Made by a program: the position numbers and the translations under genes
The notes under the pieces: generated by a model
Told to the model about the DNA's origin: nothing
Seen by the model: only the letters and a program-made list of their open reading frames with translations
The model's database searches: none
In this document: in pieces, positions 6,098 to 10,762 of the stretch
Layout: each line of letters opens with the position of its first letter
Position numbering within the stretch: the first letter of the stretch is position 1
Virus record (IMG/VR): IMGVR_UViG_3300022690_000268
Coordinates: 1 to 41,175 of that record
DNA from: a virus
Reading direction: 5' to 3' (one strand)
Length of the DNA stretch: 41,175 bases

Positions 6098-6522
6098 CAT
6101 AAGAAACCCAAACCCAAAAAAATGAGTTTAGTTCTTATGGCTCGTCATACATTCAGGCTTGGAGCCATCCGGTACAGCACGAGACAGTCAATAATTGTTA
6201 AGGTTATATTGACTCGACATCTTTCCCACCCTTAAGCAGTCCAGCCCCTGTAATGTCTTTAGAACTCAGTTGCACCATGGGCTATCTTTCAGTGCTTTAA
6301 ACCTAGGGCGGTGAGTGGGCCGGTGTACTGGCTGACATATCCTTCTAGGTCGTATTGGGCTATCTGCTTGGAGAAGATAATTAATCGCTCTGGCTGCGAA
6401 CCGGAGGCTTCTGGGAAGGGTCTAGATAGGAAAATTAGGCATGAAAAAAGGCTTATGTTTGAACAGATAAGGCAAAGTTAATAACCGCTAAGTTAAAGAC
6501 CCTACCTATCCAAACATAAACC
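6098..6522 (-). promoter_or_regulatory. gene-free structured leader of the leftward arm
   Basis: No convincing gene lies between 6049 and 6686. The region holds perfect or near-perfect inverted repeats: 6098-6105/6132-6139 (8 bp), 6137-6143/6162-6168 (7 bp), 6187-6193/6207-6213 (7 bp), 6243-6247/6279-6283 nested in 6232-6238/6293-6300, 6301-6306/6345-6350 (6 bp), 6387-6392/6400-6405, and 6450-6461/6511-6522 (12 positions, one wobble on the minus strand). A leftward promoter at 6578-6606 would transcribe all of it as a roughly 520-nt 5' leader. It could be a long regulatory leader, a processed small RNA, or contain a replication origin. Strand evidence is mixed. Confidence 0.45.
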
Positions 6523-6577
6523 TTCTTCTAACTTATTTAACTTTCTAGGCCTTAGCGGAAGCCCGTTAACGAAATGG

Positions 6578-9715: not shown

Positions 9716-9752
9716 AGTAAATATCAGTGATATTAATCTAATAAGGTTTATT

Positions 9753-9758
9753 ATGTAG
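9753..9758 (+). other. start-stop element ATG-TAG with ribosome site
   Basis: The arm's usual leader (CTAATAAGG) ends six bases before an ATG followed at once by TAG. The pairing region of the structured RNA starts on the next base. This is either a minimal one-codon ORF able to hold a ribosome or the remains of a lost gene start. Confidence 0.4.
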
Positions 9759-10310
9759 TTGTGGTCGCGGTGGGATGCCCTATGAAATGAAGCTTAGTGC
9801 ACTGAGTGGATACCCTGGCAGTCTCGGGCTATGACTGTCCGCCACAAACCTCCGTTATCACTATTCTATAGGTGTTAGAAATGTGGACTGAAACTGGGCA
9901 GTATATCCCGGTGCCAAATTAAGGGGGATTGAATGCTATTATTTCTTATTCAGTTGTCCGCATGTATCGCAGAGAAAAGTCCAGCGCCTAGAGAAGATTT
10001 ACCTAGCTGGCACACCTCAAGAACCAGCCGACCCCTACAGGTAGGCTATGGCTGAGACAGCTTTAGGTGCAACTGCGATACTGTCGGCACCGGTAACAAA
10101 TGGCAGAATGATTTATGATTCGACTGAGACAACAGTAAATCCGTGTTCTCGTGCCGTACCACGGGAACCAATAGAGTTTATTTGGTAGCTATCTTACTTG
10201 GTGACGTGTGTTCTGAAAGGTTCGATTCCTTAATTTGCCTTGGTGGCCGGATAATGCTGGAGGGTTCGATTCCCCGGAGATAGCTACACCAATAGGCTTT
10301 AAGTCTATTA
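9757..10310 (+). ncRNA. large structured RNA region, about 550 nt, unassigned
   Basis: No gene fits this stretch. On the plus strand it folds into successive helices: 9759-9764/9842-9847 enclosing 9793-9797/9802-9806 and 9817-9823/9833-9839; then 9894-9898/9907-9911; 9981-9984 plus 9988-9991 with 10003-10010; 10027-10032/10083-10088 enclosing two small hairpins (10034-10045, 10051-10061); 10110-10115/10136-10141; 10145-10153/10160-10168 (9 bp); 10185-10194/10278-10287 (10 bp); and 10291-10297/10303-10309. Every non-Watson-Crick pair in these stems is G-U on the plus strand and would be A-C on the minus strand. Two terminators follow at 10385 and 10477. A promoter of its own was not found, so it is probably made by read-through and processing. 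Confidence 0.6.
10185..10291 (+). ncRNA. tRNA-like element with duplicated T-arm motifs and encoded CCA
   Basis: GTAGCTATCT (10185-10194) pairs perfectly with AGATAGCTAC (10278-10287). The 3' strand is followed by ACCA, which reads as a discriminator base plus CCA end. Inside are two imperfect copies of a roughly 45-nt unit: CTTGGTG, 9 or 11 bases, CTGRARG, then GGTTCGATTCC, the last being the classic T-arm sequence. No anticodon arm or normal cloverleaf can be drawn, and at 107 nt it is too long for a simple tRNA. It may be a tRNA mimic, a fused or decayed tRNA pair, or the 3' domain of the larger RNA. Confidence 0.55.
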
Positions 10311-10384
10311 AACCATATCAATCACTTAGGAGGTGTCCGAGATTAGAAGTGTAGTACTTGAATTTGGATATTCACAAAACCTTT

Positions 10385-10417
10385 AGGCCCTTTTCATTAT
10401 GACTAGGGCTTTTTTTA
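10385..10417 (+). terminator. rho-independent terminator
   Basis: AGGCCCT (10385-10391) pairs with AGGGCTT (10405-10411, one G-U) and is followed by a run of eight T. It ends transcription through the structured RNA. Confidence 0.75.
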
Positions 10418-10476
10418 TATCTGGGTTATACTCAGCGCAGGTGTTTGAGATATAGTGTTTCTTTCGTCTATCCCTT

Positions 10477-10515
10477 AAAACCCTAATCTAGCTAATCACT
10501 GGATTGGGGTTTTTT
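10477..10515 (+). terminator. second rho-independent terminator
   Basis: AAAACCCTAATC (10477-10488) pairs over 12 bp with the GATTGGGGTTTT strand (10502-10513, one G-U), then T. It lies 60 bases beyond the first terminator, so the RNA region is well insulated from the genes downstream. Confidence 0.8.
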
Positions 10516-10529
10516 AATGCCTATCTATA

Positions 10530-10558
10530 TTGACTTAGTACCTATAACCATATATATT
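10530..10558 (+). promoter_or_regulatory. sigma70-type promoter
   Basis: TTGACT (10530-10535), a 17-base spacer and TATATT (10553-10558) make the best consensus promoter in the window. It restarts transcription after the double terminator and would drive the Arc-like gene and the recombination block. Confidence 0.75.
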
Positions 10559-10592
10559 CAATACACATTCAGCCAATACAGGAAATAAACAA

Positions 10593-10754
10593 ATGGCACA
10601 AGATGGAAGAGTTACAGTTGTACTTGGCCCTAAGCACGACAAGAGTTTAATCTCTGAACTAGAGGCTTATGCGCTTAAACACACAGCTGGCAATGTCACA
10701 CAGGCAGCTCGCGAATTAATGGCCAAAGGTTTGGTTAAGGGGTTAAATAAATAA
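10593..10754 (+). CDS. Arc/ribbon-helix-helix regulator, 53 aa
   Basis: A basic beta strand (GRVTVVLGP) leads into two helices, SLISELEAYALKH and NVTQAARELMAKGL, with the Gly-Asn turn expected in ribbon-helix-helix proteins such as Arc and CopG. It is probably a dimeric DNA-binding repressor that acts on the promoter directly upstream. It is the first gene of the operon carrying the exonuclease. Its length is ordinary for the family. Confidence 0.7.
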   Translation: MAQDGRVTVVLGPKHDKSLISELEAYALKHTAGNVTQAARELMAKGLVKGLNK

Positions 10755-10762
10755 GCGATTCA

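Follow-up and report, generated by a model that had tools for sequence, protein, structure and literature searches.

A probable tRNA-like RNA with two T-arms and no anticodon arm in the early arm of a P22-like phage

Here we analyzed a gene-poor stretch in the 41-kb viral contig IMGVR_UViG_3300022690_000268, whose full 41,175 nucleotides are called the window below. Portal, tail-stabilisation, P22 tail-4, and head-binding domains encoded in the window indicate a P22-like podovirus, and the closest known portals, from Pseudomonas phage AH02 and Vibrio phage 1.275.O, share 50-54% identity with its own. The stretch at 9757-10310 sits in the rightward early arm, 5' of a phrog_21613 gene and a YqaJ exonuclease gene, and there is no ORF of at least 60 aa in 9716-10762, the interval between 9715 and 10763. 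A -10-like TATTAT at 9749-9754 would place the transcription start near 9760; such sites are no more frequent in the region than in shuffles. Just 5' of this promoter-like site, a perfect inverted repeat (AATATCA-G-TGATATT, 9720-9734) is perhaps an operator. At the 3' side, two terminator-like hairpins were read directly from the sequence, having been missed by the terminator scan due to its loop limit. An earlier note, made from the letters of the same DNA, described the stretch as closed by two terminators; both hairpins exist, but both lie beyond 10310. A 53-aa ORF (MAQDGRVTVVLGPKHDK..., 10593-10754) directly 3' of the terminators weakly matches a transcriptional repressor in PHROGs (E 0.0018). 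Another gene-poor stretch lies on the minus strand at 6190-6565; at 6446-6526 (minus strand) it contains a long, highly stable hairpin with T6 behind it, which is terminator-like and folds with a z of -7.5. The features of the stretch, from 5' to 3', are given below.

9933-10055, plus strand: possible small ORF of 40 aa, with an AAGGGGG ribosome-binding site at 9921-9927 like that of the phage's other genes (AAGGGG)
9964-10082, plus strand: three-way-junction-like stretch, closing helix GTATCGCAG/CTGCGATAC, z -3.83 on the plus strand and -1.5 on the minus strand
10048-10188, plus strand: possible small ORF of 46 aa, scoring 0.216 bits per codon versus 0.229 in real genes
10145-10168, plus strand: hairpin GTTCTCGTG-CCGTAC-CACGGGAAC, z -2.3, just 5' of the tRNA-like element
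10184-10291, plus strand: probable tRNA-like RNA element (W-B), about 107 nt, two T-arms, anticodon arm absent; sole descriptor match in the window
10185-10194, plus strand: 5' strand of the acceptor-like helix, GTAGCTATCT, the perfect 10-bp complement of 10278-10287
10195-10208, plus strand: D-arm-like TAC-TTGGTGAC-GTG, seen in the sequence; TTTGGTAACGACGTG stands here in the closest relative, L336
10217-10231, plus strand: T-arm 1, AAGG TTCGATT CCTT, with an exact GGTTCGATTCC at 10219-10229
10237-10247, plus strand: mini-hairpin GCC-TTGGT-GGC between the T-arms, TTGGT loop at 10240-10244, at the same position in relatives
10262-10274, plus strand: T-arm 2, GGG TTCGATT CCC, outer stem imperfect, with an exact GGTTCGATTCC at 10263-10273
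10278-10287, plus strand: 3' strand of the acceptor-like helix, AGATAGCTAC, from the sequence
10288-10291, plus strand: ACCA, discriminator and CCA-like tail, from the sequence
10387-10416, plus strand: terminator-like hairpin 1, GCCCT/AGGGC then T7, read directly, within a weak SpF51 match
10477-10516, plus strand: terminator-like hairpin 2, stem of about 11 bp then T6, read directly, within a weak NsiR1 match

Within the 5' 430 nt of the stretch are one significant three-way junction and one small ORF whose codons look like those of genes. Coding is possible in this 5' part, at 9933-10188. The statement that no usable ORF is present stands at the 60-aa limit and is too strong below it, given one possible ORF of 46 aa with gene-like codons and one of 40 aa with a ribosome-binding site. 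The codon score of the 46-aa ORF is equalled by 0.6% of wrong-frame stretches, a p of 0.006 that is not decisive because about 20 frames were scored. The 40-aa ORF has its AAGGGGG at the usual spacing and overlaps the 46-aa ORF by 8 nt, which resembles the arrangement of genes 10994/11505, but its codon score is poor (p 0.36) and like that of noise. Homologues of these ORFs were absent from everything searched, which for the 46-aa ORF comprised known phages, PHROGs, and 25 related records. Two overlapping small genes in this part, with RNA confined to the 3' part, are possible though rather doubtful.

The 3' part most likely holds a real, uncatalogued tRNA-like RNA at 10184-10291. The earlier note overlooked its two exact T-arms (at 10219 and 10263), which are enclosed by an acceptor-like helix ending in ACCA. 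This helix has 11 pairs, 10 of them Watson-Crick (p 0.005 versus shuffled upstream sequence). The two identical 11-mers are 44 nt apart and are the window's only such plus-strand sites, and T-arm 1 is its only plus-strand T-arm-like hairpin with a perfect 4-bp stem. In T-arm 2 only one of the three outer pairs forms, so the window copy may be decayed. TTGGTG stands 5' of each T-arm, and a GG-containing D-like loop followed by a T-arm occurs twice in tandem, first as TTGGTGAC and T-arm 1, then as the TTGGT hairpin and T-arm 2. At 10263-10291 the T-arm is placed on an acceptor helix with CCA, as in a tRNA. The element cannot decode, since it has no anticodon arm. A structured RNA is thus most likely present and matches no Rfam family, so that of the two options in the earlier note, GOLLD or ROOL and a new class, the latter was in the right direction. 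What the evidence points to, however, is a compact tRNA-like element, 107 nt long, that occupies the 3' end. The proposed association with tRNAs was useful too, as the element resembles a tRNA and its relatives are in many cases located in tRNA arrays.

We next describe these relatives. A descriptor requiring an acceptor helix of at least 7 bp and two T-arms 29-64 nt apart matched once in the window and at 61 loci overall among 375 loci fetched, a figure that is not an independent frequency because most of the loci were fetched by T-arm patterns. The same descriptor gave no match in the reversed sequence of the 375 loci (2.9 Mb) and none in 64 loci fetched by protein, without a T-arm pattern. 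Scanning for two T-arms 20-50 nt apart returned many non-tRNA stretches among the matches listed, and a T-arm-TTGGTR-T-arm pattern was found in 42 viral contigs or stretches, where we estimate about one or fewer by chance. The class defined in this way, C2, comprises phage RNAs with two or three T-arms behind one acceptor helix and no anticodon. Of the features that mark the class, the window element has an acceptor helix of at least 7 bp directly 3' of the last T-arm, and T-arms 29-64 nt apart with a TTGGTR mini-hairpin between them (10219, 10240-10244, and 10263).

C2 relatives were judged by the descriptor and by re-pairing tests, as MAFFT could not align their acceptor arms. All of them came from T-arm pattern scans, so that letters fixed by the selection patterns prove nothing when invariant, and the independent evidence consists of the outer pairs, the acceptor, and the mini-hairpin only. 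The closing acceptor helix reached p <= 0.05 in 12 of 31 C2 elements without a tRNA call, with 1.6 expected, and p 0.005 both in the window and in L336. The sequence of these helices varies between loci. The two T-arms form 2.63 and 2.83 of their three outer pairs, versus 1.32 and 1.40 when re-paired (sd 0.15), and the stems of the TTGGT mini-hairpin covary modestly (p about 0.002). Acceptor, both T-arms, and mini-hairpin all covary across relatives, which are compact at about 95-135 nt and often located in tRNA arrays.

The closest relative, L336:6083-6193, lies between two phage genes and is compact, at 111 nt. It keeps the order seen in the window: a 10-bp acceptor, TA, TTGGTRACG, T-arm 1, the TTGGT hairpin, T-arm 2, the acceptor, and CCA. 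The likeness is one of layout more than of sequence. Both have a weak tRNA-Sec match, at 18 bits for the window (10188-10284) and 17 bits for L336. Three T-arms in a row were observed at L352:7309, L357:2897 (reverse), L344:2808, and L055:499-598, some of them closed by one acceptor-like helix.

A close homologue of the window copy was absent from the collections searched. With the whole region as BLAST query, phages, plasmids, and 21 related records yielded a single match, 20 nt long and inside a relative's coding gene; a reading as a shared pseudogene was dropped at a tblastn E of 0.08. The exact 26-mer of the 3' end was absent from the viral contigs. Among 34 loci fetched with the downstream gene, none had a homologous stretch at the same place, except that L005 has another structured, T-arm-bearing stretch there. 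This stretch, L005:1844-2240, is non-coding, has a T-arm near 2072 and a z of -5.9, and lies 5' of the same phrog_21613 gene. A scan of genome contigs with the neighbouring gene gave one MAG and no RNA. In Pseudomonas phage FBPa47, a non-coding stretch about 2.6 kb 5' of its phrog_21613 gene (L220:1772-1840) looks like the 5' portion of the two-T-arm RNA of the L081 type.

A second family of two-T-arm RNAs, F1, was found by a pattern with GCCGR between the T-arms. This pattern occurs in 112 stretches, with about one or fewer expected by chance on our estimate. In an alignment (A1) of 62 phage loci, including L293:1643-1717:-, L135:1693-1767:+, and L075:1507-1583:+, the common parts are T-arm 1, then a CTCGYTKGCCGAG hairpin, then GGTRAG, and finally T-arm 2. 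Covariation in the family is overwhelming: with the letters that the pattern dictates set aside, 133 two-sided changed cells are counted, versus 42.5 +- 4.9 in shuffles and at most 39 in slid controls. Rfam (15) gave no match at the element in the sampled F1 loci, and the family is ready now for an Rfam-style model. Several F1 subgroups also have a 3' part in common, in which CAGTG...GGCATGACAG occurs together with a GGGAAAGACC hairpin.

The window resembles F1 in the distance between its T-arms (44 nt, versus 41-46 nt in most F1 members), in the small hairpin between them, and in a GG loop nearby. However, it lacks the TCG...CGA hairpin: what F1 has at its centre (YTCG-YTKGC-CGA, and GGTRA ahead of T-arm 2) is absent, and the F1 model passes over this part. 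Scored with that model, the window reaches 26.7 bits (E 2.5e-7), from which we claim no F1 membership because unrelated two-T-arm and tRNA-array loci used as controls reach 24-37 bits.

To our knowledge, few tRNA mimics are known, namely tmRNA, Y RNAs, and plant-virus tails, and phage tRNA islands have been mined for canonical tRNAs only. tmRNA, including permuted tmRNA (RF04321), has a tRNA-like end without an anticodon, as the element does. It has one T-arm. Rfam tmRNA models had no match in the window, no believable tag frame was seen, and a tmRNA reading from permissive ARAGORN was noise. The closest functional analogue is the bacterial Y RNA YrlA (RF02553), with which the element shares a length of about 100 nt, ends paired in a long helix, mimicry of the D-arm, T-arm, and acceptor, and the absence of decoding. 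YrlA is an RNA of 90-150 nt that mimics the D, T, and acceptor parts of tRNA; it is a substrate for modification by DusA and TruB and a binding partner of PNPase (PMC8394870). Unlike YrlA, the element has two T-arms. The window has no RF02553 match at E <= 10 and no Ro60/Rsr gene (TROVE, PF05731), although the host might encode such a protein. RNAs built like the window element occur in dozens of other phages and are described in no RNA catalogue; in the papers covered by a literature search, no phage RNA without an anticodon or with several T-arms was described. Such RNAs are largely missed by ARAGORN and Rfam, yet they recur in dozens of unrelated phages and clearly covary.

On balance, we favor the reading that the element is a discrete RNA of about 107 nt that acts as a tRNA-elbow mimic and belongs to the recurrent phage class C2. 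Transcription would start at a promoter near 9755 and stop at the tandem terminators. Enzymes acting on tRNA would recognise its elbow and acceptor, with RNase P predicted to cut at the 5' side of 10185 and trimming at ACCA on the 3' side, perhaps along with T-loop modification. This processing would release a stable short RNA, a putative multivalent mimic that may occupy or misdirect a host factor gripping tRNAs at the elbow. With no anticodon loop, such a mimic would be immune to anticodon-cutting nucleases, which have been proposed to exert a pressure that shapes phage tRNAs (PMC10264068). The decoy role is suggested by analogy. As elbow decoys, if that is their role, these RNAs would form the nucleic-acid counterpart of those phage tRNAs that resist anticodon nucleases (PMC10264068). 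A broader reading, in which C2 and F1 form one large uncatalogued class of anticodon-free RNAs, each with a single acceptor stem and two or three tRNA elbows in a row behind it, that serve as multivalent decoys against elbow-recognising host factors or defences, is plausible but held only tentatively.

A stack of acceptor and T-arm suffices for RNase P. The fold could be a processing signal (t-element), a mark for RNase P and RNase Z cleavage in the early transcript, with the released piece having no role of its own. Its position is consistent with this, as the element ends in ACCA, is intergenic, and lies 5' of the terminators, and L336 likewise lies between two genes. A cutting mark needs one T-arm, though, and the relatives keep two or three along with covarying stems and the mini-hairpin. 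That more than one T-arm is kept favors binding over mere cutting, and we consider a signal without further function possible but somewhat unlikely. If the elements are cleavage marks only, phages would be cutting their own operons by tRNA enzymes.

The earlier note had instead proposed one large RNA of about 550 nt. In its present form this reading takes the tRNA-like part as the 3' domain of an ornate RNA of about 550-650 nt, in kind like GOLLD or ROOL. These are phage RNAs near or containing tRNAs, and published GOLLD linkers sometimes contain tRNAs (PMC12286853). The gene-poor stretch between the promoter-like site and the terminators would suit such an RNA, as would the significant three-way junction at 9964-10082, which none of 200 shuffles folded as well as. 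The non-coding L005 stretch also points in this direction, as does an annotation gap of 506 nt with a T-arm near its 3' end in a cultured phage, Faecalibacterium phage FP_Toutatis (L327:1261-1766, phage positions 5760-6265). The energy of the whole region is ordinary, however: on the plus strand, 9757-10310 folds with a z of -1.26, with 12 of 100 shuffles as good, while the minus strand has +0.27, and limiting pairs to 130 nt gives -0.9. A whole-genome fold scan returned many intervals with a z lower than the best one in this region (-2.6). Only three sub-domains stand out, namely 9964-10082, a hairpin at 10290-10318 (z -3.6), and the hairpin near 10150. The first of these overlaps a possible small ORF, and no homologue of it was found. 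The tRNA-like element taken by itself is also ordinary in energy (z -0.8 versus shuffles), which counts against the reading favored above.

A one-sided bias of G-U pairs had also been taken as the sign of a selected RNA. Tested as the difference in folding energy between the strands versus dinucleotide shuffles, it yields a z of -0.78 and therefore follows from base composition. The proposed cmscan check for GOLLD and ROOL was run and gave no match in Rfam at the gathering threshold or at E <= 10, and we reject both on this ground. With ordinary energies, no homologue of the 5' part, and one small ORF there that looks coding, and with L336 and other relatives compact at about 95-135 nt against a supported window element of only about 107 nt, a single large RNA is unlikely.

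A decayed or highly divergent tRNA gene appears less likely still. The element has the acceptor helix, GG loop, T-arm consensus, and ACCA of tRNA (RF00005) and tRNA-Sec (RF01852), and if its first hairpin were an anticodon arm, CGA would be a serine anticodon, to which the long variable region is suited. Relatives are frequent in tRNA arrays, and some of those in the class score as Rfam tRNA (L367, 46 bits; L074, 31 bits). The window element, in contrast, has a second T-arm in place of an anticodon arm and a 10-bp rather than a 7-bp acceptor, and it scores below every threshold. ARAGORN made no call at the element, with permissive settings giving poor cloverleaves only, and RF00005 had no match there at E 10. 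The seven-base anticodon loop with purine 37 and 5-bp stem of a tRNA was not found in the element. The loop of the first hairpin (T-arm 1) fits the T-loop consensus TTCRANY, its closing pairs fit a T-arm as well, and the base at would-be position 37 is U. A pyrimidine is found at this position in 22 of 30 C2 and 80 of 87 candidate F1 elements, which argues that T-arm 1 is not an anticodon arm.

An attachment-site remnant, that is, the 3' end of a host tRNA copied and used for integration, is very improbable: temperate phages often use tRNA 3' ends in this way, the phage is P22-like, and the element ends in ACCA, but an att core gives the 3' half of a tRNA only, whereas the element has another T-arm and, on the 5' side, an acceptor strand that matches, and the acceptors differ among relatives.

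Several other loci have unusual tRNA-like arrangements. L340:2265-2371, L367:4761-4869 (minus strand), and L082:1660-1830 are tRNA-like genes whose D-arm and T-arm are normal and whose anticodon loop has seemingly been replaced by a second T-arm and a hairpin; the L367 gene is still above the Rfam tRNA threshold. In L046, L097, L134, and L148, a second T-arm with a GG loop follows ordinary phage tRNAs by about 35-40 nt and resembles a mini-tRNA without an anticodon arm. Other atypical tRNA-like stretches in related phage records, L162:1208-1303 and L205 near 1501 (reverse), combine a T-arm with acceptor-like pairing.
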